From: Porphyromonadaceae bacterium CG2_30_38_12
GTDB lineage: Bacteria; Bacteroidota; Bacteroidia; Bacteroidales; Paludibacteraceae
DNA: 34,018 nucleotides
Reading direction: 5' to 3'
NCBI GenBank assembly: GCA_001873635.1
Contig: MNZK01000046.1
Span: 1-34,018, forward strand
In this document: positions 2,381 through 29,877 of the stretch, piece after piece
How positions within the stretch are numbered: position 1 is the first letter of the stretch
Layout of the letters: the number at the start of each line of letters is the position of its first letter
Program-made: the position numbers and the translations under genes
The notes under the pieces: model-generated
What the model was told of the DNA's origin: nothing
The model's database searches: none
What the model saw: the letters and a program-made list of their open reading frames with translations, nothing else

Positions 2381-3136
2381 ATGCTTCATAATTTAAAAAT
2401 ATTATTCCACAACGGAAAGCAGTTTATTCCTGATCCAACTACGGTGCAAGTACCCGGAATTTTTCGTGGACGCCCTATCATTACCGCTGCCAAAGTTGAT
2501 GCTGATCGTTTGAAGGATTTTTGCCCAACAAATGCTATTGGTACCAATCCGGTTACCATCGATTTAGGAAAATGCACATTCTGTGGCGATTGCGCTAGGC
2601 GCTTTCCGGAAAAATTCCTATTTACAAAAGATTATAAAATTTCGTCAAACGAGCGTGATCGACTGATTATTAAGGAGGGTGAAGATAAGTTGGTTGAAGT
2701 AAACCCTGACACTGTGGGCAAAGAGATTCACAGTGTTTTTGGGCGGTCGCTCAAACTACGCCAAATATCTGCAGGAGGCGATAATAGCTGCGAGTGGGAG
2801 CTGGGAGCTGCCAATAATGTTCAGTTTGACATGAGCCGCTATGGTATCGACTTTGTTGCATCGCCACGCCATGCCGACGGTATCGTGATTACGGGACCTA
2901 TTACTGCGAATATGGCACGAGCACTGCAAATTTGTTACGACGCAACGCCCGAACCCAAAATCATTGTAATAGTGGGTACAGATGCCATTAGTGGAGGCAT
3001 TTTTGCCGACAGTCCTGCCATCGACCGTAGCTTTTTAGATAAATATCATGTGGACTTATATATTGCTGGCAATCCTGCACATCCACTCACCATTATCAAT
3101 GGCTTGTTGGACTTAACACGTAAAAAACGCCTATAG
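2381..3136 (+). CDS. Ferredoxin / NuoB-type small subunit of a hydrogenase-like (Ehr-type) complex, cluster ligands degenerate
   Basis: A 251-residue protein with two parts. Residues about 25-100 are a ferredoxin-like domain. Cys48 (FCPTNAI) together with Cys65, Cys68 and Cys71 (CTFCGDC) makes one complete [4Fe-4S] site, while the second site is gone (RFP replaces the usual CP). Residues about 120-246 align by eye with HycG/HyfI/NuoB small subunits: SLKLRQISAGGDNSCEWE, the very typical SPRHADGIVITGPIT, and PEPKIIVIVGTDAISGGIF. Of the four cysteines that bind the proximal cluster in the family, only Cys137 remains. The others are Asp134, Asp201 and Asn231. No hydrogenase large-subunit gene is adjacent; the matching membrane complex is about 8 kb away on the other strand. 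Assignment as its partner is inference from shared family and window. Confidence 0.8.
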   Translation: MLHNLKILFHNGKQFIPDPTTVQVPGIFRGRPIITAAKVDADRLKDFCPTNAIGTNPVTIDLGKCTFCGDCARRFPEKFLFTKDYKISSNERDRLIIKEGEDKLVEVNPDTVGKEIHSVFGRSLKLRQISAGGDNSCEWELGAANNVQFDMSRYGIDFVASPRHADGIVITGPITANMARALQICYDATPEPKIIVIVGTDAISGGIFADSPAIDRSFLDKYHVDLYIAGNPAHPLTIINGLLDLTRKKRL

Positions 3137-7887: not shown

Positions 7888-9054
7888 TTACATATTGGGT
7901 AATCTTGGAAATTTTCCCACTTTGGTCATTCTGGCATATTTACCCCAGGCTTGTTTCAGCCAATGCCCAACGACAGGCATCGGAATTAGAATTTCCCGCT
8001 TTCTATCGCGATAAACAAAAGCAGCTCCATCGCCCATATCCATGACGCAAAGAATATTCAAATGTGCTTGATATCCTTTTCGTTTATCGCTGCCATTTTC
8101 TATTTGTATAATGTTGTATGCCGCATTTCGTCCCATCACTTCGGCAATATGTCCTTGCTTGGCTTTCCACTCGGGTCCCTCGTATGCTGCGGCATCGCCA
8201 ATGGCAAACACGTTTGGAAACTCTTCAACCTGATTATAATCGTTTATTTTTACAAAACCTGCGTCCGAAAGAGGTAAATCAGAATTTTTAAGCAAGGGCG
8301 AACCTGCTCCAGCAGCTATAAACATAGTCAAATCTGATTCTAATTTGCTGTTATCTTCGAAAATAATTCCATCTTCCACAAATTCGGTAATTTTTTTACC
8401 ATAATGACTTTTTATGTTTTGCGATGCAAACATCTTGGACATCGCTTTCAGGGCATTTTTACCCATACGAGCGCCAGGTTCAGTCATGGGTGCAAACATA
8501 GTGAGTTGAAAGTTCTTACGAATGCCTTTTTTCTTCAGATAATGGTTGATATTGAACATTAACTCGAAAGCAGGACCGCCACGTACAGCCGATTTGTCCT
8601 TCGGATTACCACCAAAACCGATGGCAATTTTACCGTTTCCTTTCGTTACCAGATCATCTAATTTTTCGCGAAATTGCTTTGTTTGTAGTGGTTGTCCGCA
8701 TATAGTAGAAGTATGTTCCACGCCCTTTGGTTGCATTTTTCCGCTACCAAAAGCCACTATTAAATAATTGTAAGATAGCAATTGCTTTTCGAATGTTACC
8801 GTATTTTCCGCAGCATTTATTCGTATTACTTTGTCAATAATCAGTTTAAAACCGTGTTTTATTTGAATGTCAGCTAATTTAATCTGCGCATTTTCGTATG
8901 TCAATTCGTGAACAGGTATCCAAATTGAGATGGGATAAACGAATAAAAAATCACGGTCGGACACCAATGTTACGTCAAAATTTTTACTCTTTTGCAATTC
9001 AATAGCTGTTTGCACTCCAGCAAATCCACCACCTAAGATGAGTACTTTTTTCAT
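7888..9054 (-). CDS. NAD(P)/FAD-dependent oxidoreductase, sulfide:quinone oxidoreductase-like
   Basis: A 388-residue flavoprotein with the dinucleotide-binding start VLILGGGFAGVQTAIEL, a second motif region NVFAIGDAAA (~281-290) that contacts FAD, and a C-terminal segment rich in Trp and basic residues that could sit on the membrane. This is the layout of sulfide:quinone oxidoreductases and type II NADH dehydrogenases. It has only two cysteines, Cys119 and Cys336. In the region that usually carries a catalytic Cys in SQR (before GGPAFE, ~157-164) there is an Arg, so classical sulfide oxidation is doubtful. It is the last gene of a group with a thioredoxin and a DUF1847 protein (gaps of 37 and 11 bases), which suggests thiol or sulfur chemistry. 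Substrate unknown. Confidence 0.8.
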   Translation of the reverse strand: MKKVLILGGGFAGVQTAIELQKSKNFDVTLVSDRDFLFVYPISIWIPVHELTYENAQIKLADIQIKHGFKLIIDKVIRINAAENTVTFEKQLLSYNYLIVAFGSGKMQPKGVEHTSTICGQPLQTKQFREKLDDLVTKGNGKIAIGFGGNPKDKSAVRGGPAFELMFNINHYLKKKGIRKNFQLTMFAPMTEPGARMGKNALKAMSKMFASQNIKSHYGKKITEFVEDGIIFEDNSKLESDLTMFIAAGAGSPLLKNSDLPLSDAGFVKINDYNQVEEFPNVFAIGDAAAYEGPEWKAKQGHIAEVMGRNAAYNIIQIENGSDKRKGYQAHLNILCVMDMGDGAAFVYRDRKREILIPMPVVGHWLKQAWGKYARMTKVGKFPRLPNM

Positions 9055-9091
9055 AAAATGAATGGTAAATGGTAAATGAATAAATTGTAAA

Positions 9092-9502
9092 TTACTTCAT
9101 TGCTTTCAATAAAAAATCTTTTGTTTTTATTCCCACAAAACGATTTACTTCTTTTCCATCTTTAAAAAGAATAAGTGTAGGAATGCTGCGCACATTAAAT
9201 TTCTGTGCCATAGGTTGATATGTTTCGATATTTAATTTACCCACCTGTTTCCCAACGGACAATTCGTTGGCAACATCATTTAATATCGGAGCCATCATGC
9301 GGCAAGGTGCACACCATTCTGCCCAAAAATCGACTAAAACCAATTTCCCTTTCGTTTGCTGATTGAAGTTTTTATCCGTAAGCGTGATAATTTTTTCACT
9401 ATCAGCCACTTTGGGTGCATTTTTCATTTTAAAGCGGGCATAAATATTTAATAAAATAAATGTACCAAAAATGACAGTAAGAATAATTAATATTGTTTGC
9501 AT
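9092..9502 (-). CDS. Membrane-anchored thioredoxin
   Basis: A 136-residue protein: an N-terminal hydrophobic helix (about residues 3-20) followed by a complete thioredoxin domain with the active site WAEWCAPCRMM (Cys64, Cys67) and the cis-proline stretch VRSIPTLILF. The helix followed by basic residues could anchor it with the thioredoxin domain on either side of the membrane; sequence alone does not decide this. WCAPC is typical of reducing thioredoxins. It sits between the DUF1847 gene and the FAD oxidoreductase gene, so one of these may be its partner. Confidence 0.9.
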   Translation of the reverse strand: MQTILIILTVIFGTFILLNIYARFKMKNAPKVADSEKIITLTDKNFNQQTKGKLVLVDFWAEWCAPCRMMAPILNDVANELSVGKQVGKLNIETYQPMAQKFNVRSIPTLILFKDGKEVNRFVGIKTKDFLLKAMK

Positions 9503-9513
9503 AGTTCTTTTGC

Positions 9514-9978
9514 TTAATTTATAAATTCCTGATACGGATTGTTTTTATGTTCTCTATCTTTTACAACCAAGGTTGTGGTAGGGGCTTTCGATTTCATGTT
9601 GAATACAATGTCGTGCCCAACGCAAAGTCCGAACGAGATATTCAATTCAGTTTGTTGCTGTGCCAAGAAGTCTGCTTGTCCAGCTGGGTTACACGAAGTT
9701 CCGCGTTCCGATTCGTCATCGAGCATTACGGCAGCCGGTACTTTTCCATATTTACAATCAACGGTGTACACATCGAACTGGTCAGAAAGTCGGTCTTTTA
9801 ATTGCAAGGCTTCACGAGTCATCCCTATGCAATGAGCAATACCAATGCGTTTTACACCCTGTTTTTGGGCAAAAAGCTTTAGCTCTTCTACCCGATTTTT
9901 ACCCATTAACAAGGAATCTTCAGCTGCCCGCATCATTTTTAAATCGGTTTCGGTATATAATTTCTTTTGTTTTTGCAT
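9514..9978 (-). CDS. DUF1847 family protein
   Basis: A 154-residue soluble protein of unknown function that I recognise as DUF1847-like from its C-terminal signature: SCNPAGQADFL (Cys96), LNISFGLCVGHD (Cys119) and SKAPTTTLVVKDR. Two more cysteines, Cys50 (GIAHCIGMTREA) and Cys75 (TVDCKYGK), make four in all, well spaced for thiol chemistry or metal binding. As I recall the family, many members carry an extra cysteine cluster at the N-terminus, which is absent here. The gene leads a probable operon with thioredoxin and an SQR-like flavoprotein. A 12-base inverted repeat lies 33 bases upstream of its start. Confidence 0.75.
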   Translation of the reverse strand: MQKQKKLYTETDLKMMRAAEDSLLMGKNRVEELKLFAQKQGVKRIGIAHCIGMTREALQLKDRLSDQFDVYTVDCKYGKVPAAVMLDDESERGTSCNPAGQADFLAQQQTELNISFGLCVGHDIVFNMKSKAPTTTLVVKDREHKNNPYQEFIN

Positions 9979-10010
9979 TTTCGTTTTTTATGAATGTTTG
10001 TATAAATGTA

Positions 10011-10038
10011 TTGAACAGCAAATTTCTTTGCTGCTCAA
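10011..10038. promoter_or_regulatory. Inverted repeat upstream of the DUF1847 operon
   Basis: TTGAACAGCAAA (10011-10022) and TTTGCTGCTCAA (10027-10038) are inverted copies separated by TTTC, with a single mismatch in twelve pairs. The right end of the operon start is at 9978, so the repeat sits where an operator or a leader hairpin would be. No clear -7 box was found nearby. Confidence 0.5.
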
Positions 10039-10229
10039 TAAATATATTTTTTGAAAGTCAATCATAAAAGTTATTTAACTGTTTTTGTTTTTTTTATCTT
10101 TCGGAAAAAGTACATATAGTCACACGATTAGCATTGGTAAAATAAGTTGTTACCTTCATCACACTAAGAGTCATTTGAAAGATAATTTTTTTTCATCATT
10201 ACCTACTCAGTTAAACGAATTGGGCGCAT

Positions 10230-10622
10230 TTAATATTTTTCGTAAGGTAATTTATTAGCAGCCCACATAGGAAATCCATCCATCATTTGATATAGAATTT
10301 TAAACCCGTTTTGCCTCATATAACCAACAGCGGCACCGCTTCTATTGCTTGTGCGGCAATATACCATATAAGTTGCTTTTTTATCTAATTTGTCGATGCG
10401 TGCATAAAAATTATCTTGATAAATATCAATATTAACTGCACCTTTTAAATGTCCAGCTGCAAACTCATGCGGCGTACGCACATCAAGGATGACAATTTTC
10501 TTGTTTTTTGCTAAAATTTGACTTAATTCTGTTGATCTTTTTTGAATAATTTGTTGTGCCGATACAGATAATACAGATATTAACATGATTATTACTGCAT
10601 ATAGGATTTTTTTTGTTTTCAT
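10230..10622 (-). CDS. Exported rhodanese-like domain protein
   Basis: A 130-residue protein with a signal peptide (MKTKKILYAVIIMLISVL then VSAQQ, probable cleavage after residue ~22) and a single rhodanese domain: ILDVRTPHEFAAGHLKGAVNI and the active-site loop VYCRTSNRSG with catalytic Cys89. Rhodaneses carry a persulfide on this cysteine and transfer sulfur to thiol or cyanide acceptors. Location should be the periplasm. The gene lies 250 bases upstream of, and on the same strand as, the DUF1847-thioredoxin-flavoprotein group, which suggests related sulfur chemistry. It has its own promoter with two 12-base direct repeats overlapping the -33 region. Confidence 0.9.
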   Translation of the reverse strand: MKTKKILYAVIIMLISVLSVSAQQIIQKRSTELSQILAKNKKIVILDVRTPHEFAAGHLKGAVNIDIYQDNFYARIDKLDKKATYMVYCRTSNRSGAAVGYMRQNGFKILYQMMDGFPMWAANKLPYEKY

Positions 10623-10659
10623 TTTTTAATATTGCAATAATTTTAGATAATTGACGCCA

Positions 10660-10689
10660 CAAAGATACGAGAAGATTTTTGAATTACAA
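10660..10689 (-). promoter_or_regulatory. Bacteroidota-type promoter of the rhodanese gene
   Basis: On the minus strand, TTG (10687-10689), a 19-base spacer and TATCTTTG (10660-10667) form a full match to the phylum consensus. The -7 box is 37 bases upstream of the start codon at 10622. Confidence 0.7.
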
Positions 10690-10722
10690 TAATATCACTA
10701 TTAAATTATTATAATATCACTA
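10689..10722 (-). repeat. Two 12-base direct repeats at the rhodanese promoter
   Basis: TAGTGATATTAT (minus strand) occurs perfectly at 10711-10722 and at 10689-10700, 22 bases apart, about two helical turns. The promoter-proximal copy touches the -33 element, so the pair is well placed to bind a dimeric or cooperative regulator. Confidence 0.6.
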
Positions 10723-11070
10723 AAGTTCTGTTTTGAAAGATTTGACAATTTACTGTCTCAATGAAACTTTTATTCTGAAAAGCGGTTTTTGTTTTCTACC
10801 AAAGCACCGTGCCTACTTATTTGCTTTATTAAACACTAAAAACTAATTCTATTTTATAAATTAATTTCTATAGTACTGCAAGTAATTATTATTTATGAAT
10901 ATTTTACAGCAGTTTAAGATTAAAGTGCTTATATAATTGAATGTGCCATTAAACTAATAACTACACATTGCGCTATACTAATAAATTAACAAGGTTGTGG
11001 TGGCGTGAATAGTTACCGTCTTAGCTTAACTTTTGGTTTTTTTGGTCTTAAAAATAGGCAGTACTCTATT

Positions 11071-12570
11071 TTACAAATCGTGTCCCGAATAGGACAAATT
11101 AAAACTTTTATTACAAATTGGAAAATCGGATATTTCGTTGTTGCGTACAGATAAAGCCAATGCCAACCAATTATGAAACGAAGGGTCTTTAATTTTGTAA
11201 AGCATCAATTCACCTTTTGTATCGGTAAGCGCGCAATGACATATTTCGCCTCGCCAACCTTCCACCAGCGATAGTGAAAACGCATTGGGTGTAAGTGCTT
11301 TAAGCTCTTGGTTAACTGTTGAAATTTCGGGCACATCGGTCAACATGGTGCGAACATATCGTAGCGATTGTTCTACCTCACGACGGCGTATTTGAACCCG
11401 TGAATATACATCACCATGTCTTTTCAGGATTGGTTCGTGTTCCAATTCGGCATATAAGCTAAAAGGATGCGAAGCTCGAATGTCTCGATTTAGGTTTGTC
11501 ATGCGTGCAGCCATACCTACAGCTCCAATGCTCAGCGCATCGTCAAAAGATACAACCCCTGTGCGTTCAAAACGCGACAAAGCGCTTGGCAAAGTAAAAA
11601 GTTTGTTAGCCATTTCCATGAAGTCAGGCTCAAAAACATCCAATACTTGACACAAGCGTTGAGCAAGTTCAGGAGTAAACGGATAGCGATTTTCGCCAGG
11701 GCGAATAAGGCTTTTGGAAAGCCTGCTACCACACCACTCTTGCATAAAATTAATAATTGGTGTCCGTAAACGCCCAAAAACAGCACTTCCAAGCTGATAA
11801 GCTATGTCGGTACAAACAGCACTCAAATCGCCCACATGAATAGCAATACGCTCCAACTCCAAAGCTAGTGTTCGCGCAAATTCAATATCGCGAGCGGGTT
11901 TAAAGTTAGCTAAGCTTTCGTAAACATGGGCAAATGCCACCCCGTGTCCCACCACTGTATCGCCTGTGATATTTTCAGCTAAGGTAGCCCGTTGAGCTAA
12001 CTGCTTTTTTTGTACGAAGAGCGATTCAATACCACGGTGCTGGTATCCCAACTGAATTTCGAGATGTAAAATTTGTTCGCCATTGCAAATAAATCGAAAA
12101 TGCCCTGGCTCAATGATACCAGCATGTATAGGACCTACTCCAACTTCATGAAGCTCCTCACTATCAATGCTATAAAAAGGATAATTATCCATAATCTGTG
12201 TCTTATCATCGCGGTCGTGCGGATAACGAACAGGCTTTGACCAAGGATGGTCAGTGTAATTAAACCCAAAATTTTCGTGAATTTCCCTTTCAAACTTCTC
12301 AAAACAAAGAAATGTGTTTGAAAACGACTCCAAAGGGTGAGCTTTGTTCACTAAACTTGTAGATATATGAATTTCGTGCGTCACATCATCGGCAACGCAG
12401 CAAATTAGTTTCACATTTTTACCAACACGGTAGCCAAAATAATTCACGCAATGGCGCTCGGGATGTCCTGTCATGAATTCGATATTCATTTCGTAGAACC
12501 ACTCGTAATTGCTTTCGGGAATATCCGATAGTAAAACTGTTTGATTATTTTTTATGCTGATGTAGTTCAT
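11071..12570 (-). CDS. Fused NuoC/NuoD-like large subunit of a hydrogenase-like (Ehr/HyfG-type) complex lacking NiFe ligands
   Basis: A 499-residue protein. Residues ~1-125 match the NuoC (30 kDa) domain, including FEREIHENFGF. From ~140 it matches the large-subunit/NuoD domain: EVGVGPIHAGIIEPGHFRF and LEIQLGYQHRGIE. HyfG and HycE have the same fusion. The positions that should carry the NiFe cysteines read ENITGDTVVGH (Thr202 and Thr205 in place of the first pair) and FNLSYSGHDL at the C-terminus (Ser493 and Gly496 in place of the last pair), so no NiFe centre can be bound in the usual way. This is the pattern of Ehr-type complexes. It is the last gene of the operon; the peripheral arm should face the cytoplasm. 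Confidence 0.88.
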   Translation of the reverse strand: MNYISIKNNQTVLLSDIPESNYEWFYEMNIEFMTGHPERHCVNYFGYRVGKNVKLICCVADDVTHEIHISTSLVNKAHPLESFSNTFLCFEKFEREIHENFGFNYTDHPWSKPVRYPHDRDDKTQIMDNYPFYSIDSEELHEVGVGPIHAGIIEPGHFRFICNGEQILHLEIQLGYQHRGIESLFVQKKQLAQRATLAENITGDTVVGHGVAFAHVYESLANFKPARDIEFARTLALELERIAIHVGDLSAVCTDIAYQLGSAVFGRLRTPIINFMQEWCGSRLSKSLIRPGENRYPFTPELAQRLCQVLDVFEPDFMEMANKLFTLPSALSRFERTGVVSFDDALSIGAVGMAARMTNLNRDIRASHPFSLYAELEHEPILKRHGDVYSRVQIRRREVEQSLRYVRTMLTDVPEISTVNQELKALTPNAFSLSLVEGWRGEICHCALTDTKGELMLYKIKDPSFHNWLALALSVRNNEISDFPICNKSFNLSYSGHDL

Positions 12571-12597
12571 TTTTTTGTGTTCATTTTTATCTGATTC

Positions 12598-14025
12598 TTA
12601 AATTAACTTGGCAATACTTTGGTTAATGAGCTCCACAAAAATAGCTGGTGGATTAAGCCCCAACCAGGCAGCTCCACCAATAAGCACAAATTGCGATAGC
12701 GAGCGCCACGGGTTGATGCGAGGTACATCTGTTGCATCGAAATTAACAGGTGGTATGAATAGTATTTTAAATATATTTTTTGCAAAAGCCCATATTATCA
12801 TTGTTAGCAACAGAAGTACAACTATGAGTAGCAACATTTGTTTTGCTTCGAAAAGCGAACGGAAAATTAAAAATTCGCTTACAAACAAGCCTGATGGTGG
12901 CATGGCAGTTACGCTCAGAAACGCCAACAGAACCACTATGGCGCCGGTAGGATTGTATTGAAAATAATTACCAATGTAATAGATGTTTTTATTTTTATAT
13001 ACTTTATAAATCTGATTATACTGAAAAAACAAGCTCGACTTTACAAAACTATGCAAAATAATATGCAGCACAGCAGCATAATAACCGATGCCACCCGCAG
13101 CCACACCCAGCATAACCAAACCCATGTGTTCCACACTGGAATAAGCCATCATACGCTTGATATTCTTCACTTTAATCATATAAACTGTGGCAATAAATAG
13201 CGATAGAAATGCAGCTATACCCACTACCAAACTTGCCCAATGTAACAAAGTAGTATTAGCAATCACAATGTAGAACCGAAATATACCCACGAAGCCCATT
13301 CCCATAATGATACTCGACAGGAGCGCTGCCGCCGGACCAGGTGCTTTATCTTTGGCATCTACACCGGCAGTAAACATGGGGAAAAGCCCTAACTTGGCAG
13401 TAAAGCCGGTAAAAACAAACAAAAAAGCCAAGCGTAACCACGAAGTATTCAGTAAATCTTTGTGAAGAAGCAAATTTTTGTAAGATAAAGCATCTGCATC
13501 ACTATTGGTGAGCGAGAGACTCAAAAACAAAATCCCGATAAACACAAAGGTAATACTGATAGCACATATAAACACATATTTCCAAGTTCCTTCTAAGGCT
13601 AACTTGTTGCGATGATGGTAGATAAGTGCTGATGCTGACAAAGTCGTTATTTCCGTAAAAATCCATACAACGGCAATGTGGTTAGCTATATAGGCAGCAC
13701 TTACAGCGGTAATTAAAAAAACCAAAGCTCCAAAATAGGTTGCGCGTGAACGAGGATTATTTTCTTCACTTTCTTCGATATACACATAGCTATGAAAAGC
13801 CGCAGGCACACTAATGATAGTGGCTGTTACCAACATAAGAACGCCCAAAGCATCGAAAGTAAAATAATTTGCCGAATCTTTGTTGAAGTTAATACAAGCA
13901 TAAACCGTAAAAGCAATCTGAATAACCAAAAAGGTACTAAGCAATGCATAATTTACATTCCTTTTGCGATTAATAAACAAGGCAGCTCCAAGCAGCGAAG
14001 CACTTATTAAATAAAATAGAATCAT
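12598..14025 (-). CDS. HyfF/NuoN-like antiporter-type membrane subunit
   Basis: A 475-residue integral membrane protein of the proton-conducting (Mrp/NuoLMN) family, with about 13-14 helices. VVWIFTEITTLSASALIYHH carries the buried Glu typical of these subunits, and TAKLGLFPMFTAGVDAKDKAPGPAAALLS the Lys and the broken-helix region, matching HyfF specifically (APGPAAALLS). MAYSSVEHMGLVMLG is also typical. It lies 27 bases upstream of the large subunit gene and 4 bases after the HyfE-like gene. In such complexes this type of subunit couples redox-driven change to ion movement, and all the channel residues I can recognise are kept. Confidence 0.88.
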   Translation of the reverse strand: MILFYLISASLLGAALFINRKRNVNYALLSTFLVIQIAFTVYACINFNKDSANYFTFDALGVLMLVTATIISVPAAFHSYVYIEESEENNPRSRATYFGALVFLITAVSAAYIANHIAVVWIFTEITTLSASALIYHHRNKLALEGTWKYVFICAISITFVFIGILFLSLSLTNSDADALSYKNLLLHKDLLNTSWLRLAFLFVFTGFTAKLGLFPMFTAGVDAKDKAPGPAAALLSSIIMGMGFVGIFRFYIVIANTTLLHWASLVVGIAAFLSLFIATVYMIKVKNIKRMMAYSSVEHMGLVMLGVAAGGIGYYAAVLHIILHSFVKSSLFFQYNQIYKVYKNKNIYYIGNYFQYNPTGAIVVLLAFLSVTAMPPSGLFVSEFLIFRSLFEAKQMLLLIVVLLLLTMIIWAFAKNIFKILFIPPVNFDATDVPRINPWRSLSQFVLIGGAAWLGLNPPAIFVELINQSIAKLI

Positions 14026-14029
14026 TGTG

Positions 14030-14662
14030 TTAGTAGTCTTTTAAATTTGTTAATTGATTGACGTCCACATCTTTAAATACATCCCCAATTTTATTCAAGA
14101 AAATGCCCAAAATAAGCACACTGGCAAAAATATCAAGCATAATTCCTAAGTTTACCAATACGGGCATTTCGCTCCCTACAGCCAACGAAAGTATAAAAAC
14201 GCCATTTTCAATAATTAAATAACCCATGACGTGTGTAATGATTTTTCGACGGGATGCAATGAAGTAAAGTCCAGTAAATAAAGTAGATAATGCAACTACA
14301 AAAAACATTTTATCCAAGCGAACATCTTCCATAGCGTTGGAAAGCACTATGGTAATTACAACAATAATGGTGGTGATAATTAAAGAAACAAAGTTTGGTA
14401 AAAATGGCTCTGCCTCACGCGTTATGTGATTATGCTTAAGCACTCTGCGCAGAAATATAGGCACAGCCAACGCCTTGAAAACGATGGTTTCGAGCATAAT
14501 TAAAATTAGATTAAGTGTATCGATGTGTTTCAGCTCTAAATAAGACACTACAAACAGCAATAGTCCCTGTAAAATAAGTACATTGACGTAGGTGGTCATC
14601 CGATTGGCAATGGACAAATAAAACAAAGTTATCAAAAAAAGTATTAACGTTACGTGTAACAT
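14030..14662 (-). CDS. HyfE-like membrane subunit
   Basis: A 210-residue protein with about six membrane helices, matching the HyfE family (NuoK-like C-terminal half): YLELKHIDTLNLILIMLETIVFKALAVPIFL and HVMGYLIIENGVFILSL, in which the Glu within a helix is the conserved NuoK-type acid. It sits between the HyfC- and HyfF-like genes in the standard order. Expected role: part of the ion pathway in the membrane arm. Confidence 0.85.
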   Translation of the reverse strand: MLHVTLILFLITLFYLSIANRMTTYVNVLILQGLLLFVVSYLELKHIDTLNLILIMLETIVFKALAVPIFLRRVLKHNHITREAEPFLPNFVSLIITTIIVVITIVLSNAMEDVRLDKMFFVVALSTLFTGLYFIASRRKIITHVMGYLIIENGVFILSLAVGSEMPVLVNLGIMLDIFASVLILGIFLNKIGDVFKDVDVNQLTNLKDY

Positions 14663-14687
14663 AAGCTTCTATTATTTTATTTTGAAA

Positions 14688-15593
14688 TTAAATAAATTTA
14701 CCTGATATTAAAAGTGTTGCAAAAAAAACAAGCAAGGAAACAGATGAGAGAACAACAATATATTGTGCATTGTGCGTCATGCGAAAACGTGCCATAAAAG
14801 ACTCAACTATACCTGCCACTACTGCCAATAGCAACTGCATAGCTATGAAGAGAGGAATAGCATATTGATACGAAATAGTTCCCGAAAACAAATTGAAAAT
14901 AAGCGTTCCATAAATAGCAAATTTCAAAAAACCAGCTGTAAGAATTAATCCCAAGTCGAAACCGCTATTATCCAAAATCATTACTTCATGAACCATAGTG
15001 AGTTCGAGGTGTGTTTTAGGATCGTCAATAGGCATACGGCTATTTTCAATCATAGCAATCATGAGCAAAACAAATGCGCCAAGTGCGCCCAATGCATACG
15101 AAACTGATGAGCCTAAATGCAAGGACAAAAAAATGTCGTGAAATGAGGTGTGTCCTGTAAGCAATGCCAATGAGCCGATGAGGATAAAAAATGCCGGTTC
15201 GGCAAACATGGAATACAAAGCCTCACGACTGGCACCCATACCCTCGAAACTACTTCCGGTATCCATGGCACCAATGATGCTAAAAAATTTACCCAAGCCC
15301 AACACATAAGCAAAGAAAATAAAATCGCCATCAAAACTTATCAACCCTGCCGATTTGCCAAAAGGCACTACCAACATGGCTACCACTACGGATGTAAAAT
15401 AAATAGTTGGCGCAATTTGAAAAATAAAACTGGTGGTTTGGCTATACACGGCTCCTTTACGAAACAAGCGAAAAACATCGTACAAAGGCTGAAAAATGCC
15501 CGGTCCTTTACGTCCTGATGCGATACTTTTTGTTCGAATAAGCACCCCAGTAAAAAAGCTTGCAGCTAACACAATTAATAAAACACTCAACAT
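14688..15593 (-). CDS. HyfC/NuoH-like membrane subunit
   Basis: A 301-residue membrane protein of the NuoH/HycD/HyfC family, the subunit joining the membrane arm to the peripheral redox arm. Typical stretches are RKGPGIFQPLYDVFRLFRKGAVY near the N-terminus (the RxGPxxxQPxxDxxKLxxK-like motif) and MIENSRMPIDDPKTHLELTMVHEVMILD, the conserved acidic loop near the quinone/redox site. Eight membrane helices are likely. Its start lies 4 bases beyond the stop of the second antiporter gene. Confidence 0.9.
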   Translation of the reverse strand: MLSVLLIVLAASFFTGVLIRTKSIASGRKGPGIFQPLYDVFRLFRKGAVYSQTTSFIFQIAPTIYFTSVVVAMLVVPFGKSAGLISFDGDFIFFAYVLGLGKFFSIIGAMDTGSSFEGMGASREALYSMFAEPAFFILIGSLALLTGHTSFHDIFLSLHLGSSVSYALGALGAFVLLMIAMIENSRMPIDDPKTHLELTMVHEVMILDNSGFDLGLILTAGFLKFAIYGTLIFNLFSGTISYQYAIPLFIAMQLLLAVVAGIVESFMARFRMTHNAQYIVVLSSVSLLVFFATLLISGKFI

Positions 15594-15597
15594 AATT

Positions 15598-17634
15598 TTA
15601 TAGTTGTTTTAAGAATGTAATAAATAAGTCTATATCAAAATATATCAAGGGTATAGCTATCACCGCAATGATAAAAACAATACCATATAAGATGTAAAAT
15701 TGCAAATTGCCATTCTGAAAAAACCGAAAACGGTCTAAAAAAGACTGCAATTTAAGAGTTGGAAAATCGATCAACCACTTTTCAATCAAATCAGAGGGAT
15801 GCGTTTCCATCATGGCAGTTCCCGGAAAAATTCCTTTCACAGGCTTTTCTTTTTTAAATATCAAAAAAAGTATTTGAAACAGTTGGCTATACGATTTGAC
15901 AAAAGAACTGGCTGTGTATTGCAATTTTGAACTCGATGCCGTGTAGCCACAACCCCAAGTGTCCGATAATTTGTTAGTTTTATGGCGCGTCATTATGTAG
16001 CGAAATCCAAACACAACCGATCCAATAACTAAAATGAGTAGTGCTGATTTGCTTACGCCTTGCATGGCTTGCAGATTTAAACTGTCGAAATTGCTGAATG
16101 ACATGCCTTGCAGGTTTGTGAAGAGCTGTACAGGTTTAGCCAAAAACACAAGAAAAATGGTTGGAAACAAGCCTATTGCAATAATTACAAGGGCTAAAAC
16201 ATAGAGTGGTAATAATTGATACAGCGAACGTTCTTTTACTTCGTGCTCGTAATTATGACGAGGCGAACCAAGAAATACAACTCCAAATGCTTTGGTAAAA
16301 CATATCAATGCGAGCCCACCTATGAGCACTAAACCTGTAATTGTAAAAACTATTCCTAATAAGCTCAATATACTTGCATGGTGAACAGACTGAAACATAC
16401 CCGAATAGAGCATAAACTCGGAAATAAATCCATTGAAAGGTGGTAATCCACTGATTGCCAATGCAGCTATTAGAAAAAGAAAAGCCGTATGAGGCATTTT
16501 TTTGATTAATCCACCCATTTTTTCAATATCCAAATTATGGGTTGCCTGATAAATATTACCAGCCGTGTAAAACAAAAGCGATTTGAAAAGCGAATGATTG
16601 AAGGTGTGAAGCAAAGCCCCACCAAAACCCATGCTTACCAATATCACATTATTACTTCCTAAACCTTGGCAACCGATTCCAATTCCAATTCCAATGATAC
16701 CAATGTTTTCGATACTGTGATAAGCTAAAAGTTTTTTCAGATTATGTTGCAGAATAGCAAGCATCACGCCATACAAACCCGAAACTACCGAAATGATGAT
16801 GATAATGCTCCCCACAACCACAAAATCAACTTTGATAAGCAGTAGCATCCGCAAAATACCAAAAATACCTATTTTGATTAAAATGCCCGACATTAAACCT
16901 GAAATGTGCGATGGAGCAACCGGATGTGCCAATGGCAACCATGTATGAAAAGGCACAAAACCAGCCTTAATGGCAAAGCCCACAAAGAAAAACAAAAACA
17001 GTAAGAGCGACAAAGCCCCTTGATGTTGAACGCTATAAAGTTCAATAGCATGAAATGAATAGCTGCCAGTTTGAATGCCAACCCAGATAAAACCAAGCAT
17101 TAGAAATAATATCGATACATGCGATTGAATGAGAAAGTTGATGCCCGATTCAATAGTTTCAGCCTTTTCGTGTTCAAAAATAATACTCAGAAAAGCCGAA
17201 AGAGCCATTATTTCCCAGGCAATGAGAAATACAAAACCATTTTGAATAACACAAAGACTGAGCAAAGAAGTGTATAAAAGAATAAACATCACCGCTTGCA
17301 GCGTCAAATTATTTTTTTGCTTACGGTATTCGTTCATGTAAAATAAACCATAAAAGCCACCCGTCAAAAATCCAAAATTGATAATAAGCATAAACCAAGC
17401 CGAGAGAGCATCTACCTTCAAATCAATATTTCCGATCAGGCTATTACCTTGCAAACTAAAAACAAAATCGCTTCCTAAAAGCACATTGAAAGCCACTATC
17501 GAAGCAAAAATAGATAATAATAGAATTGCAGCATACAAAGCAATAGCACGTCCTTTCTGATTTACAAAAGGAAAAATGCTCAAAGCAATGCTGGGTATCA
17601 GCAAAAAAATCCAAATAACAATTAATTCATTCAT
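15598..17634 (-). CDS. HyfB-like antiporter subunit, second tandem copy
   Basis: A 678-residue membrane protein of the HyfB/NuoL-type family. Conserved features are IAWEIMALSAFLSIIFEH (buried Glu), AIKAGFVPFHTWLPLAHPVAPSH and the following SGILIKIG (buried Lys), YHSIENIGIIGIGIG, and FNHSLFKSLLFY. After the ~14-helix core comes the C-terminal part with WGCGYTASSSKLQYTASSF, a mark of HyfB/HycC subunits, ending in another membrane helix. It is paralogous to the neighbouring gene at 17657-19654 throughout its length (same motifs and same C-terminal tail), which points to an old tandem duplication. Confidence 0.88.
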   Translation of the reverse strand: MNELIVIWIFLLIPSIALSIFPFVNQKGRAIALYAAILLLSIFASIVAFNVLLGSDFVFSLQGNSLIGNIDLKVDALSAWFMLIINFGFLTGGFYGLFYMNEYRKQKNNLTLQAVMFILLYTSLLSLCVIQNGFVFLIAWEIMALSAFLSIIFEHEKAETIESGINFLIQSHVSILFLMLGFIWVGIQTGSYSFHAIELYSVQHQGALSLLLFLFFFVGFAIKAGFVPFHTWLPLAHPVAPSHISGLMSGILIKIGIFGILRMLLLIKVDFVVVGSIIIIISVVSGLYGVMLAILQHNLKKLLAYHSIENIGIIGIGIGIGCQGLGSNNVILVSMGFGGALLHTFNHSLFKSLLFYTAGNIYQATHNLDIEKMGGLIKKMPHTAFLFLIAALAISGLPPFNGFISEFMLYSGMFQSVHHASILSLLGIVFTITGLVLIGGLALICFTKAFGVVFLGSPRHNYEHEVKERSLYQLLPLYVLALVIIAIGLFPTIFLVFLAKPVQLFTNLQGMSFSNFDSLNLQAMQGVSKSALLILVIGSVVFGFRYIMTRHKTNKLSDTWGCGYTASSSKLQYTASSFVKSYSQLFQILFLIFKKEKPVKGIFPGTAMMETHPSDLIEKWLIDFPTLKLQSFLDRFRFFQNGNLQFYILYGIVFIIAVIAIPLIYFDIDLFITFLKQL

Positions 17635-17656
17635 TTATTCATTTAGTTCATACCAT

Positions 17657-19654
17657 TTATAACATAACATTAAAAATAGTTAGCAAAAAGATAGCCATAA
17701 TAAATATGATTCCATACAATACATACGATTGTACACGACCATTTTGAATAAATTTAAAGTAATTCACAGCATACAACAGTTGATTTGTAAATTTGTGAAT
17801 CAGAATATCTTCAAAAAAATCGTGATAATGCGATACATAACGTTTCGGAGTTGGAAAAATGTCGCCAGCACCTAATTCTTTATATTCTTTGCGTTCCAAC
17901 ACTATAAAATTGAACATTTTGCTCAACGATTTGGAAAATGATTTGCCTGTATATTGCTGTTGCGCATTGCCAGCAGTGTATCCACAGCCCCAAGTAGCAG
18001 CTATGGAGACCATTTTACCGCGCGTAACCCAAGCACGTAAACCCCAAACAACCAACGCAAGCACAATAATCAACAACGAATACAAACTAATTTGCTGTAG
18101 CAATTGGCTATAAGCCAAAAAGCCAAGCGGTTCGGGCATTGGATTCAATGGCGAAAAATGAACCATTATCTTGGCTATAACGGCAAAGAAAAATTGTGGA
18201 AAAAAAGCTACTGCCATCATTAGGGCAATGATAAAATATTGAGGAACTAACATCCAAGCACTCACTTCATGCACTTCGTGATGCAAATGCTGGCGCGGAC
18301 TACCCAAAAAAATCACGCCGAAAGATTTTGTAAAAGTAATGATAGAAAGACCACCAATCACACTCAAACCCGCAAAAGTAAGCGCAAAAAGAATGATTTG
18401 AGAAATATTGTCAAGTTGAATGCCTTGCATTAATCCATTGTAAATAAGAAATTCGGAAATAAAACCATTGAAAGGAGGCATCCCACCAATTGCCACAGCA
18501 CCAATCAGAAAAGTAAAAGCTGTGCGAGGCATCAATTTTAGTAGTCCACCTAATTTCTCCATATCGCGTGTATGCGTTTGTTGATAAACCGAACCCGCCG
18601 AGAAGAAAAGTAGCGATTTGAACAGCGAGTGATTAAGTACATGCAACAACGCCCCACCAAAGCCAAGGTAATAAAGCAAAGGCATTTTGTTAGCTAAACC
18701 CATCAATCCAATACCCATACCAATGCCGATAATGCCAATATTCTCGATAGTACAATACGCTAACATTTTTTTAAAATCACGATGCATGGCAGCATTGAGT
18801 ATCCCATACAAACCCGTAAGCACCGAAACGGTTATTATCACTTCGGCTATCAGTATATAGTCTGTTGTTAAATAGGTAATTACACGTAAAATGCCATAAA
18901 TGCCAAGTTTTACAATGACGCCCGACATAACGCCCGACACATGCGAAGGAGCAGCTGGATGGGCATGAGGTAACCAGCTATGTAGCGGAATAAAGCCGGC
19001 TTTGAGTCCAAAGCCTACAAAGAAAACCACGAATAACCAAAAATTACTGTGAGTACCAAAATAAGCTGTGAAGGCATCGAAACTAAAAGTTCCCGTTTGA
19101 AAATATACCCAAATAAAACCTATTGTTAGAAAAATAACACTGATGTGCATTTGCACCAAATAGTTAATACCTGCTTTGAGTGTCTGCGGATTATTTGAAT
19201 CAAAAATAACCAAAAACATAGACGAAAGCGACATCAATTCCCACGCTATGAGAAATGCCATACTATTTTGCAACATACATACCCACACCATCGAAAGATG
19301 AAAAAGCACAAATAATATCCAATGAAAAGTTAGCTTGCGCGATGTTTCATTATAAACGCGCAGGTAACCTGAGCCATAAATAACCCCGGTTATAACTGTA
19401 AAGTTAATGATAAGAATAAACCATGCTGAAAGTGCGTCGATGCTTACCCTCACGTCGCGCATGAGCTCACCACCCCAAAAAATGAACGAAACGGCATTGC
19501 CAGTAAGCGCAGATACTGCCAACCAACTGGTAGCCAGCGCAGATAGCATAATAGTAATAATAGCGACGTAAGCTTTTTGAGAGGCAGGAACAGCGTAAAT
19601 GACAAGAGCACCCAATAAGGCAATAATCCAACTCGAATGAATCAATTCAACCAT
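17657..19654 (-). CDS. HyfB-like antiporter subunit, first tandem copy
   Basis: A 665-residue membrane protein with the same architecture as the next gene: IAWELMSLSSMFLVIFDS, GLKAGFIPLHSWLPHAHPAAPSH, SGVIVKLGIYGILRV, CTIENIGIIGIGMG, LNHSLFKSLLFF and, in the tail, WGCGYTAGNAQQQYTGKSF. First gene of the six-gene operon. I put the start at the ATG at 19654 (MVELIHSSWIIALL): a longer frame begins at 19711, inside a -7 promoter box at 19709-19716, so it cannot be the translated start from that promoter. With the second copy and the HyfF-like protein, the complex has three antiporter-type subunits, the same number as Hyf and complex I. Confidence 0.87.
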   Translation of the reverse strand: MVELIHSSWIIALLGALVIYAVPASQKAYVAIITIMLSALATSWLAVSALTGNAVSFIFWGGELMRDVRVSIDALSAWFILIINFTVITGVIYGSGYLRVYNETSRKLTFHWILFVLFHLSMVWVCMLQNSMAFLIAWELMSLSSMFLVIFDSNNPQTLKAGINYLVQMHISVIFLTIGFIWVYFQTGTFSFDAFTAYFGTHSNFWLFVVFFVGFGLKAGFIPLHSWLPHAHPAAPSHVSGVMSGVIVKLGIYGILRVITYLTTDYILIAEVIITVSVLTGLYGILNAAMHRDFKKMLAYCTIENIGIIGIGMGIGLMGLANKMPLLYYLGFGGALLHVLNHSLFKSLLFFSAGSVYQQTHTRDMEKLGGLLKLMPRTAFTFLIGAVAIGGMPPFNGFISEFLIYNGLMQGIQLDNISQIILFALTFAGLSVIGGLSIITFTKSFGVIFLGSPRQHLHHEVHEVSAWMLVPQYFIIALMMAVAFFPQFFFAVIAKIMVHFSPLNPMPEPLGFLAYSQLLQQISLYSLLIIVLALVVWGLRAWVTRGKMVSIAATWGCGYTAGNAQQQYTGKSFSKSLSKMFNFIVLERKEYKELGAGDIFPTPKRYVSHYHDFFEDILIHKFTNQLLYAVNYFKFIQNGRVQSYVLYGIIFIMAIFLLTIFNVML

Positions 19655-19708
19655 GAGATAAAGAATTTTAGAAGCAAAAAAAGAATAGAAAGGTGTTGAA
19701 ATTTTTTG

Positions 19709-19716
19709 CAAAGGTA
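19709..19716 (-). promoter_or_regulatory. -7 box of the Hyf-like operon
   Basis: On the minus strand TACCTTTG matches TAnnTTTG. It lies 54 bases upstream of the ATG at 19654. A good TTG at the -33 distance was not found, so the promoter may depend on an activator. Confidence 0.5.
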
Positions 19717-25441: not shown

Positions 25442-25450
25442 TAATTGCAC

Positions 25451-26296
25451 ATGAATACAATTGTTTTAGCTCTTATAATATTGGGATTAGTGGGTGCCGT
25501 TTCATCCATAATTCTTTTTTTTGTTGCCAAAAAATTTCAGGTTTTTGAAGATGTTCGTATTGCTCAAGTAGAAGAGGCTTTGCCTGCTGCCAACTGTGGT
25601 GGCTGTGGCTTTCCAGGCTGTCATGGTTTTGCCAATGCCTGTGTGAGCGCTCCTTCGCTCGATGGCTTGCTGTGTCCGGTAGGTGGCAATCAAACGATGC
25701 AAAAAGTAGCTGCTATTATGGGCAGAACGGCAGTGGAATCTGCTCCTACAGTGGCGGTAGTTCGTTGTGGTGGCACCTGCGACCACCGTCCGCGTACCAG
25801 CGACTACGATGGGGTGAAACATTGTTTTATTGCTCACAATTTGTACAGTGGCGAAACGGGCTGTTCGTTTGGATGCTTGGGCTTAGGCGATTGCGAAGTA
25901 GCATGCGAATTTGATGCTATACACGTAAATCCCATCACAAAACTGCCAGAAGTGGACGAGGAAAAATGTACCTCCTGCGGTGCCTGCGTCAAAGCATGTC
26001 CAAAACTATTGATAGAGTTGCGCAAAAAAGGACCCAAATCGCGTCGCATTTATGTGAGTTGTCGCAACGAAGACAAAGGACACATTGCCCGTAAATCGTG
26101 CGATGTGGGCTGTATTGCCTGCGGAAAATGTGAAAAAGTATGTCCTCACGGCGCTATAACAATAAGCAATAATTTAGCATTTATTAACGATGATGCTTGC
26201 AAACTTTGTAGAAAATGTGTCGAAGTATGCCCAACCAACGCTATTGTTGAACTGAACTTTCCTCCACGTAAAGTTAAAGAAGAATCACTTGTATGA
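25451..26296 (+). CDS. rnfB: Rnf complex subunit B (long ferredoxin form)
   Basis: An approximately 281-residue iron-sulfur subunit of the Rnf complex, which links electron flow between reduced ferredoxin and NAD to Na+ or H+ transport. It has an N-terminal membrane helix, then the Fe-S domain ANCGGCGFPGCHGFANACV, a middle cysteine-rich region (CSFGCLGLGDCEVACEFDA) and further [4Fe-4S] motifs CTSCGACVKACP, CIACGKCEKVCP and CKLCRKCVEVCP. The many clusters match the long RnfB of Bacteroidota and clostridia. ATG at 25451 gives MNTIVLALIILG; an in-frame TTG six bases before is less likely. Its last four bases overlap the rnfC start, and it is the first of six genes in the order B-C-D-G-E-A. Confidence 0.95.
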   Translation: MNTIVLALIILGLVGAVSSIILFFVAKKFQVFEDVRIAQVEEALPAANCGGCGFPGCHGFANACVSAPSLDGLLCPVGGNQTMQKVAAIMGRTAVESAPTVAVVRCGGTCDHRPRTSDYDGVKHCFIAHNLYSGETGCSFGCLGLGDCEVACEFDAIHVNPITKLPEVDEEKCTSCGACVKACPKLLIELRKKGPKSRRIYVSCRNEDKGHIARKSCDVGCIACGKCEKVCPHGAITISNNLAFINDDACKLCRKCVEVCPTNAIVELNFPPRKVKEESLV

Positions 26297-27618
26297 AAAC
26301 ATTTAAAATGGGTGGCATTCACCCCTCAGAGAATAAACTCTCTGCCGGAAGACCAATTCAACTTGCTAATATACCAAAGCAAGTTGTGATTCCTTTGTCG
26401 CATTATATTGGAAATCCCAGCGAAGCTGTTGTAAAAAAAGGCGACTTTGTAAAAGTAGGTCAGCTCATAGGAAAAGCTAACGGATTTATTTCGGCTAATG
26501 TGCATGCCTCTGTTTCGGGCAAAGTGAACAAAATTGATGTTCAATTAGATGCATCGGGATATAAAAGACTTGCAGTATTTATAGATGTAGAAGGCGACGA
26601 GTGGTTAGAAACCATCGACCGCACGCCTACTATTATCAGCGAGTGTTTACTTTCGAGGGAAGAAATACTAAAAAAAATTCAGGATGCCGGCATAGTTGGG
26701 CTTGGTGGTGCCACCTTTCCTGCTCACGTAAAACTATCGCCTCCTCCGGGTAAAAAGGCAGAAATACTGATTATTAATGCTGTTGAATGCGAATCGTATC
26801 TCACCTGCGACCACCAGTTAATGCTCGAAAAAGGGGAAGAAATTTTAATTGGAGTTAGCATTTTGATGCGTGTATTGGATGTAAAACAAGCTGCCATAGG
26901 CATCGAAAACAATAAAAAAGATGCCATTGCACATCTTTCAAAATTGGCTGAAAAGCACACAGGAATACGCATAGAAGCTTTGAAAGTACAATACCCACAG
27001 GGTGGTGAAAAACAGCTCATCGATGCCATCATTCAACGTCAGGTGCCAAGTGGACGCATCCCAATTGAAGTTGGCGCAGTGGTGCAAAATGTAGGAACTA
27101 CCTTTGCTGTGTATGAAGCTGTTCAGAAAAATAAGCCCATGATTGAGCGCGTATTGACTATTACAGGTAAAGAGGCTTCTAATCCGGGCAATTATTTGGT
27201 GCGTCTGGGAATTTATTTAGCTTCGGTAGTTGAGCAAGCTGGTGGTGTTCCTGCCAACACGGGAAAAATAGTTGGTGGAGGTCCTATGATGGGGCGCTCG
27301 CTTATGAATCTGAACGTTCCGATGGCAAAAGGCAGCGCCGGTATATTATTTATCAAAGCCGAGGAATCATTACGAAAACCAATTCAGAATTGCATTCGCT
27401 GTACGAAGTGTGTGCGTGTTTGTCCTATGGGGCTTGAGCCCTTTTTGCTCATGAACCAAAGTGAACGAAATATGTGGCCGGAAATGGAAAAAAATCGCGT
27501 TATGGATTGTATCGAGTGCGGCAGTTGTAGCTACACCTGTCCATCCAACAGACCTTTATTGGACTATATTCGCTTTGGGAAAACTACGGTGGGAAGTATT
27601 ATCAGAAATAGAAAATAA
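26293..27618 (+). CDS. rnfC: Rnf complex subunit C
   Basis: A 441-residue peripheral subunit that binds NADH and FMN. The N-terminal region has GGIHPSENKLSAG, then VHASVSGKVNKI. GLGGATFPAHVKL (~residues 136-148) is the nucleotide/FMN-binding motif shared with complex I NuoF, and EVGAVVQNVGTT lies in the same family core. Two [4Fe-4S] motifs follow near the C-terminus: CIRCTKCVRVCP and CIECGSCSYTCP. The first codon overlaps the rnfB stop (ATGA). The gene ends three bases before rnfD. Length is like the Bacteroidota form, without the long repeat tail of E. coli RsxC. Confidence 0.95.
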   Translation: MKTFKMGGIHPSENKLSAGRPIQLANIPKQVVIPLSHYIGNPSEAVVKKGDFVKVGQLIGKANGFISANVHASVSGKVNKIDVQLDASGYKRLAVFIDVEGDEWLETIDRTPTIISECLLSREEILKKIQDAGIVGLGGATFPAHVKLSPPPGKKAEILIINAVECESYLTCDHQLMLEKGEEILIGVSILMRVLDVKQAAIGIENNKKDAIAHLSKLAEKHTGIRIEALKVQYPQGGEKQLIDAIIQRQVPSGRIPIEVGAVVQNVGTTFAVYEAVQKNKPMIERVLTITGKEASNPGNYLVRLGIYLASVVEQAGGVPANTGKIVGGGPMMGRSLMNLNVPMAKGSAGILFIKAEESLRKPIQNCIRCTKCVRVCPMGLEPFLLMNQSERNMWPEMEKNRVMDCIECGSCSYTCPSNRPLLDYIRFGKTTVGSIIRNRK

Positions 27619-27621
27619 TTT

Positions 27622-28584
27622 ATGGAAAAACTTATTATTTCGCCTGCACCTCACATTCATGGTGGCGATTCCGTTAAAAAAAACATGACTGCCGTGTTGC
27701 TTGCTTTGTTGCCAGCCCTGTTAGTCGGTTTTTATTTCTTCGGATTGGGTGCACTCATCATCACGCTTACTTCGGTAATAAGCTGCGTGCTTTTTGAGTA
27801 TATTTTGCAGCGTTATGTGCTACGCATCGAAACCTCCATCAGCGATGGTTCAGCCGCTGTAACTGGTTTACTGTTAGCCATGAACTTACCCACCAATTTA
27901 CCAATCTGGATTATCGTTATTGGTGCTTTGGTTGCCATTGGTATCGGAAAAATTACTTATGGTGGTTTAGGAAACAATCCTTTTAATCCAGCATTGGTAG
28001 GGCGCGTATTTTTACTAATATCTTTTCCGGCTCAAATGACTTCGTGGCCATTGCCAACGCCCTTTTCCTCCCATTATTTGGATGCTGAAACTGGTGCCAC
28101 TGTTTTGTCAATTATAAAAAGCCACTTGGGCGAACTACCATCCACACTCAGCTTATTTTTGGGAAATATGAGTGGTTCGATGGGCGAAATTTCCTCAGCT
28201 GCCCTGCTACTTGGGTTGCTCTATTTATTATTAAAGAAAACAATAAGCTGGCATATTCCTATTAGCATTCTTAGCACTGTGTTCGTGTTTACAGCATTAT
28301 TAAATTATTTCAAACCAGATGTTTACGCCTCGCCTTGGTTGCATATGTTTTCGGGCGGTTTAATGCTTGGTGCTATTTTTATGGCAACCGATTATGTAAC
28401 GTCACCCATGAACCCCCGCGGCATGTTAGTTTATGGTTTTGGAATTGGAATTATTACAGTGGTAATTCGTGTTTTTGGTGTCTATCCAGAGGGTGTCTCG
28501 TTTGCCATTCTTATCATGAATGGGTTCACGCCCATCATTAACACCTACATCAAGCCAAAACGTTTTGGAGAAAACATAAAATAA
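27622..28584 (+). CDS. rnfD: Rnf complex subunit D (flavinylated membrane subunit)
   Basis: A 320-residue membrane protein of the NqrB/RnfD family, with about nine to ten helices. SPAPHIHGG at the start is typical. AETGATVLSI holds the site for covalent FMN, where Thr160 is the expected acceptor in the (S/T)GAT motif. NPFNPALVGRVFLL and ATDYVTSPMNPRGMLVYGFGIG are family-conserved helices. FMN would be attached by an ApbE-type transferase, whose gene is not in this window. No Shine-Dalgarno sequence precedes the start. Confidence 0.95.
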   Translation: MEKLIISPAPHIHGGDSVKKNMTAVLLALLPALLVGFYFFGLGALIITLTSVISCVLFEYILQRYVLRIETSISDGSAAVTGLLLAMNLPTNLPIWIIVIGALVAIGIGKITYGGLGNNPFNPALVGRVFLLISFPAQMTSWPLPTPFSSHYLDAETGATVLSIIKSHLGELPSTLSLFLGNMSGSMGEISSAALLLGLLYLLLKKTISWHIPISILSTVFVFTALLNYFKPDVYASPWLHMFSGGLMLGAIFMATDYVTSPMNPRGMLVYGFGIGIITVVIRVFGVYPEGVSFAILIMNGFTPIINTYIKPKRFGENIK

Positions 28585-28601
28585 CTTTTTAAACGAAAAA
28601 A

Positions 28602-29228: not shown

Positions 29229-29241
29229 CAAGGAAAACATC

Positions 29242-29835: not shown

Positions 29836-29877
29836 TAATTTACAATCTTAAAAAAAAATAGTAAATAAAAAAACAAT

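Follow-up and report, generated by a model that had tools for sequence, protein, structure and literature searches.

What takes the place of the N2 (proximal) cluster, and what work is left for a complex-I-like machine, when the four cysteines that should hold that cluster are missing? The question is raised by a small-subunit gene of Porphyromonadaceae bacterium CG2_30_38_12, found in a window (the whole stretch of DNA that was analysed, 34,018 nucleotides) in which the features of that gene are as follows.

2381..3136, + strand: small subunit (B), an intact open frame of 251 amino acids that begins with ATG
2522..2593, + strand: ligands of ferredoxin cluster II, Cys48 (2522-2524), Cys65 (2573-2575), Cys68 (2582-2584) and Cys71 (2591-2593)
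2780..2791, + strand: Asp134 (2780-2782) and Cys137 (2789-2791), at proximal-cluster ligand columns 1 and 2
2981..2983, + strand: Asp201, at ligand column 3
3071..3073, + strand: Asn231, at ligand column 4

The protein is a HycF-like ferredoxin domain for a single [4Fe-4S] cluster fused to a HycG/NuoB-like domain. In profile searches its residues 1-100 resemble E. coli HycF (7z0s_F, E 1.2e-13), whereas from about residue 111 onward the matches are to HycG (7z0s_G) and MbhJ (6cfw_J) and then to the PSST subunits of complex I; the C-terminal half also matches Oxidored_q6 with an E value of 1.4e-20. An AlphaFold model, computed for the small subunit alone from 45 aligned sequences, is confident (pLDDT 91.7, pTM 0.89), and its top fold matches in the PDB are HycG and MbhJ. 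The sequence-only reading had placed Asp134, Cys137, Asp201 and Asn231 at the four cluster columns, inside otherwise well-kept motifs, and this placement holds: in profile alignments the four residues fall on the cysteines of P. furiosus MbhJ (6cfw_J) and E. coli HycG (7z0s_G), and the motifs SPRHAD (161-166), PEPK (190-193) and SGGIF (204-208) are all present. The four ferredoxin cysteines, likewise noted as kept, are cysteine in all 111 related sequences that have a ferredoxin domain, while the window protein has neither the first CxxCxxC nor the last cysteine of a 2[4Fe-4S] ferredoxin. The same reading presupposed that no intact second small subunit serves the operon from elsewhere, and a genome-wide search agrees with this as far as a genome that is 82.6% complete allows: the sole further PF01058 gene found is an ordinary four-cysteine NuoB in a nuo operon.

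The remaining genes of the complex lie on the opposite strand.

11071..12570, - strand: large subunit, a NuoC/D fusion, HycE-like, without the NiFe cysteines (T202, T205, S493 and G496 instead)
12034-12036, - strand: codon of Arg179 in the HRGIE motif (large-subunit residues 178-182)
12598..14025, - strand: HyfF-like antiporter subunit, with E125, K211, K329 and E384 kept
14030..14662, - strand: HyfE-like (NuoK-like) membrane subunit
14688..15593, - strand: NuoH/HyfC-like membrane subunit, with conserved acids E124, E132, E183, D190, D191, E197, E203 and D208
15598..17634, - strand: HyfB-like antiporter subunit, second copy
17657..19711, - strand: HyfB-like antiporter subunit, first copy

The small-subunit gene is thus displaced by 8 kb from the rest (11071-19711), whereas in close relatives (L089, L112, L122) it closes the operon as the final gene. 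On contigs of sufficient length, the order HyfB-H-E-F-CD-B is common to the four-cysteine and the cluster-less types. A lone small-subunit gene is found in L065 (four-cysteine) and in L140 (DCDN); in the latter, the D-type small subunit at 10001-10738 has no adjoining operon, and no close large subunit was found in that genome, where the best match reached 26%. Two HyfB-like subunits occur in L089, L112, L121, L124, L128, L143 and L144, as they do in the window (15598-19711), and other D-type operons have one. Elsewhere in the family, Variovorax and Rhodoferax (L046 7466-25346, L120, L137) carry two neighbouring Ehr operons, one whose small subunit has the ferredoxin domain and one whose small subunit does not. 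In one further locus (L009 1501-3361, G060) the D-type small subunit is followed, on the same strand and about 0.7 kb downstream, by an ordinary four-cysteine NuoB gene. Some 7.2 kb upstream of B, 10 of 32 C-type loci have a gene whose reading alone suggests a helix-turn-helix protein.

Between the displaced gene and the operon, at 7888-10622 (- strand), the window holds a sulfide-quinone-reductase-like flavoprotein (under the model cut-off), a thioredoxin and, by reading only, a rhodanese-like protein. Alongside the Ehr operon it also holds a complete-looking Rnf operon at 25445-30453 (+ strand; rnfB, C, D, G, E and A by NCBIfam), and the source genome has a nuo operon as well.

Set against known systems, the complex shares with Ehr both the HyfB-H-E-F-CD-B order and the absence of a complete NiFe ligand set: T202/T205 and S493/G496 stand where the large subunit would have its NiFe cysteines, and antiporter-like, NuoH-like, large and small subunits are all encoded, the last at a distance of 8 kb. 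It departs from its Ehr relatives in that the four cysteines of their proximal [4Fe-4S] cluster read DCDN. Ehr complexes have been described, in the excerpts available, as lacking the Ni- and Fe-coordinating residues (PMC6349859, PMC10284858, PMC7304191); their function has been termed unknown (PMC10284858), a formate-dehydrogenase-Ehr complex has been proposed (PMC6349859) and pH homeostasis has been put forward as a possible role (PMC6688271). These excerpts mention the NiFe site only, whereas the window complex is also without the proximal cluster and has two carboxylates at its columns. The best sequence matches of the small and large subunits, and the best fold matches of the small subunit, are the E. 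coli formate hydrogenlyase and hydrogenase-4 (Hyc, Hyf) and P. furiosus MBH, which carry both the NiFe site and the proximal cluster where the window complex has neither; the two CxxC motifs of a group 4 NiFe hydrogenase are missing from its large subunit. Complex I has a homologous Q module and shares the HRGxE arginine, the NuoH acids and the antiporter-like subunits, but the four-cysteine N2 site that subunit B has in NDH-1 is absent here, as are NuoEFG from the operon. Mrp-type cation/proton antiporters, whose mode of work we propose for the window complex too, have the antiporter-like subunits with conserved Glu and Lys but not the NuoH, CD and B subunits that the window complex possesses.

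To place the substitution in its family, small subunits were gathered from whole genomes, GTDB contigs and plasmids, and 122 open reading frames scoring above 150 bits gave 114 non-redundant sequences. The GTDB contig search confirmed 528 of 583 stretches, of which the best 80 were used, and six plasmid records from overlapping lists of 246, 211 and 227 comprised four of the four-cysteine and two of the cluster-less type. Later sampling added 14 sequences (n=128; 61 CCCC, 67 cluster-less), and Mycobacterium branderi brought the cluster-less total to 68; its plasmid operon (L175 4215-11654) is Ehr-like, with a HyfB-like gene 3' of a small-subunit gene whose NDDA product is annotated merely as 'ferredoxin'. 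The order to which G833 (genome title Cytophagales) belongs gave matches in 14 of 291 genomes, two of them already in the set; in the orders of G834 (1/266) and G831 (1/22) the genome at the centre of the search was the single match, and two family-level searches over the same 10 genomes matched 7, at loci that were all in the set already. Around the source genome itself, close matches occurred in 16 of 395 genomes of its class, one of the 16 being of the four-cysteine type, and in 3 of 6 genomes of its genus.

The ligand columns of the 114 sequences fall into 61 CCCC, 51 D-x-D-N, 1 DDHS and 1 TDES, with x being C in 46 of the 51, N in 2, and A, S or V in one each. If the cysteines had simply decayed, random residues would be expected at these columns; instead, D134, D201 and N231 occur together in 51 of 53 non-CCCC sequences (later 59 of 67), which rules such randomness out. 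The replacement looks selected, as the earlier reading had supposed, since D-x-D-N recurs in 59 of the 66 cluster-less Bacteroidota sequences and the remaining seven differ from it slightly. The cultured Arcticibacter eurypsychrophilus (L093), for one, reads DCDN. Ligand sets are far more varied in the order of G833 (DCDN, DNEN, ENEN, DDHS, DDHF, DDNY, DTDN, DGDN, DNDN, DQDS, DQES and DADN). Over all cluster-less sequences column 137 may be C, N, A, S, V, T, G, Q or D, and column 231 N, S, F, Y or A, although in Bacteroidota Asn231 is by far the commonest (61/66). Cys137 was considered as a retained ligand and rejected on the variability of its column. Among all 128 sequences, none retains two or three of the ligand cysteines. 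A control set of 25 small subunits with lower scores (24 nuo-like genes and one ferredoxin-less Ehr, at least one gene being counted twice) has all four cysteines throughout, 23 by a strict pattern and two by eye. Within the 51 D-x-D-N sequences 63 of 249 columns are invariant, three of these by choice of the set. From these residues it is very probable that the proximal cluster is gone from the small subunit, which would apparently make it a selected variant of Ehr complexes in which that cluster, too, has been lost.

What the cluster-less sequences have in common is the number of acids: exactly two of the four columns are Asp or Glu in all 68, across 16 ligand sets. In Bacteroidota the pair is at 134 and 201, or at 134 and 137 (DDHS, DDHF, DDNY), and in Allomeiothermus silvanus (TDES) and M. 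branderi (NDDA) it is at 137 and 201. When columns were shuffled over the 15 distinct sets of the 67 sequences other than that of M. branderi, the rule was reached in 12 of 20,000 shuffles. It was noticed after the fact, however, and covers some four independent arrangements (two in Bacteroidota, A. silvanus and M. branderi), for which the binomial probability, at p = 0.5 for each column, is 0.375^4, or ~0.02; with so few arrangements the rule is suggestive, short of proof. Asp is unlikely to be there as an easy mutational outcome, because Cys to Asp takes two base changes. An oxidised [4Fe-4S](Cys)4 cluster has a net charge of -2, the same as two carboxylates.

A partner for such a charge would be at hand in the large subunit. 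In Yarrowia complex I, NDUFS2-R121, the equivalent of the HRGxE arginine, lies 3.7 A from N2, and exchange of this arginine for Met or Lys abolishes the N2 signal, as given in excerpts of one paper (PMC8042128). The corresponding Arg179 is present in 46/46 D-type and 52/52 C-type large subunits. Of fifteen further cluster-less genomes, in which the large subunit was read from the flank, 13 carry Arg, and L159 and L161 carry Lys, so that this second-sphere position keeps its positive charge; the subunit was not recovered at L158, L163, L164 and L166; A. silvanus has the arginine too, as does M. branderi by eye. Lys also stands at 179 in all four ferredoxin-less four-cysteine relatives, so the residue is not strictly tied to the cluster.

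The membrane part has kept its equipment. The HyfF-like residues listed above are conserved in 27/27 D-type sequences, those of the NuoH-like subunit in 22/22, and the HyfB-like E181, K260, K291, H384 and K388 in 32/32; all of these charged positions are assigned to the proton path known from complex I. The cavity of the large subunit has likewise retained residues such as H149. With the ion path kept and the electron path lost, a transporter is the best reading. No conserved neighbour in the D-type loci hints at which ion would be moved.

We give about an even chance to the proposal, drawn from sequence, that this is an ion-translocating Ehr-type complex which is not driven by electrons through N2, and in which a carboxylate pair of charge -2 takes over from the charge that the oxidised cluster would carry. 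The emptied N2 site would deliver no electrons to the large-subunit cavity by that route; the two carboxylates would substitute for the -2 of the oxidised [4Fe-4S](Cys)4 cluster, presumably through contact with Arg179, and would fix the cytoplasmic module and its interface with NuoH in a single state. The complex might then act as a redox-uncoupled translocator of cations and protons, similar to Mrp and complex I, and the isolated ferredoxin cluster could be structural, or could serve as a redox or oxygen sensor that gates the translocator. Against this, the complete conservation of the cluster II ligands could indicate that electron transfer of some kind is still of importance.

The main rival to charge replacement is a divalent-metal site, in which another ion (e.g., Mg, Ca, Mn, Fe or Zn) would be held by the carboxylates together with Asn, Ser, His or water, in a structural or catalytic role. 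The sequence-only reading had raised, as a speculation, a different metal bound by three oxygen donors. Its carboxylate part has stood up, in that the pair is constant in 68/68 cluster-less sequences, and the Asn231 of most Bacteroidota (61/66) and the His at 201 in DDHS and DDHF would suit a metal; the third oxygen donor, however, is not constant, the remaining two positions tolerating A, V, G, F and Y. A metal site is on this showing unlikely, though it deserves a serious hearing. Distinctly unlikely is the reading that the complex has remained a redox enzyme whose electrons leave ferredoxin cluster II for a partner or substrate and bypass N2. The ligands of cluster II (111/111) and kept cavity residues such as H149 are in its favour, but most D-type members are also without cluster I, which leaves cluster II without neighbours, and neighbour families outside the operon are each confined to at most 3 of the 26 long D-type loci, among which no partner oxidoreductase recurs. 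Clusters of the [4Fe-4S] type with a single Asp ligand are known, and Cys137 is present in 50 of 67 cluster-less sequences, so that an Fe-S cluster might in principle persist here with unusual Asp/Cys/Asn ligation; since the remaining 17 of 67 have no cysteine at any of the four columns, we regard this as very improbable. Decay of an unused gene, which the patchy occurrence in class (16/395) and genus (3/6) might suggest, is barely credible given zero internal stops among all matches listed in the genome searches, 63 invariant columns of 249, a conserved operon and kept ion-path residues.

How the N2 ligands came to be lost can be followed in part. The large-subunit counts, which keep duplicates in and set aside 16 untyped, 4 ferredoxin-less and 2 other rows, have S and G at the C-terminal NiFe columns in 46/46 cluster-less and 52/52 four-cysteine sequences; column 202 is Cys in 10/52 of the four-cysteine and 1/46 of the cluster-less type, and column 205 in 0/52 and 1/46, respectively. 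The four-ligand NiFe site is therefore missing in both types, which makes its loss older than that of N2. This overturns the suggestion of a coordinated loss of NiFe site and proximal cluster, for four-cysteine relatives in several phyla were already without the full NiFe site.

The first tree of small subunits left the ligand columns out. In it, L082 and three four-cysteine sequences of the Kapabacteria/Ignavibacteria kind join the D-type rows to make up one set of 55 (SH-aLRT 91), within which the branching does not resolve, and the whole set is nested in a four-cysteine family of Proteobacteria, Planctomycetes, Gastranaerophilales, Lentisphaeria and others. Once the 14 sequences are added and A. 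silvanus, a long branch, is dropped, a single change between the C and cluster-less states is found, at moderate support (SH-aLRT 82), while the ligand sets change 17 times on the tree with the added sequences. For the two outlying cases the nearest of the small-subunit-core rows compared are four-cysteine, namely Caballeronia at 57% for M. branderi and Bradyrhizobium at 56% for A. silvanus. The tree favours three separate cluster losses, which suggests that those in A. silvanus and M. branderi were separate from that in Bacteroidota, but the AU test does not reject a single cluster-less clade (p 0.16).

Cluster I, the outer cluster, appears to have gone later still. All four of its cysteines remain in 1 of the 51 D-x-D-N sequences, some in 12 and none in 38, as against all four in 50 of the 58 CCCC sequences with a ferredoxin domain; the other three CCCC sequences are without any of Cys48/65/68/71. 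The cluster I cysteines are kept in the basal cluster-less L069 and L082 and, by eye, in several others from the order of G833, so that its loss seems to postdate that of N2. Eight CCCC sequences are also without cluster I, and its loss is thus not specific to the cluster-less type. In the open-access literature, searched through titles and the beginnings of abstracts and with the founding Ehr description outside that search, no natural loss of N2 or the proximal cluster in this superfamily came to light.

Overall, we hold it plausible, at somewhat less than an even chance, that N2 was swapped, perhaps repeatedly, for a carboxylate pair of equal charge, and that a redox-free or redox-gated transporter keeps working. 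It has long been asked how complex I couples the pumping of ions to electron transfer at N2 and at the quinone site. A natural lineage with the Q-module fold and the ion-path residues, and with two fixed carboxylates instead of the N2 cysteines, uncouples the two halves of that question. If the proposal is true, the charge at the N2 site, beyond the flow of electrons, would set the conformational state of complex-I-like machines.
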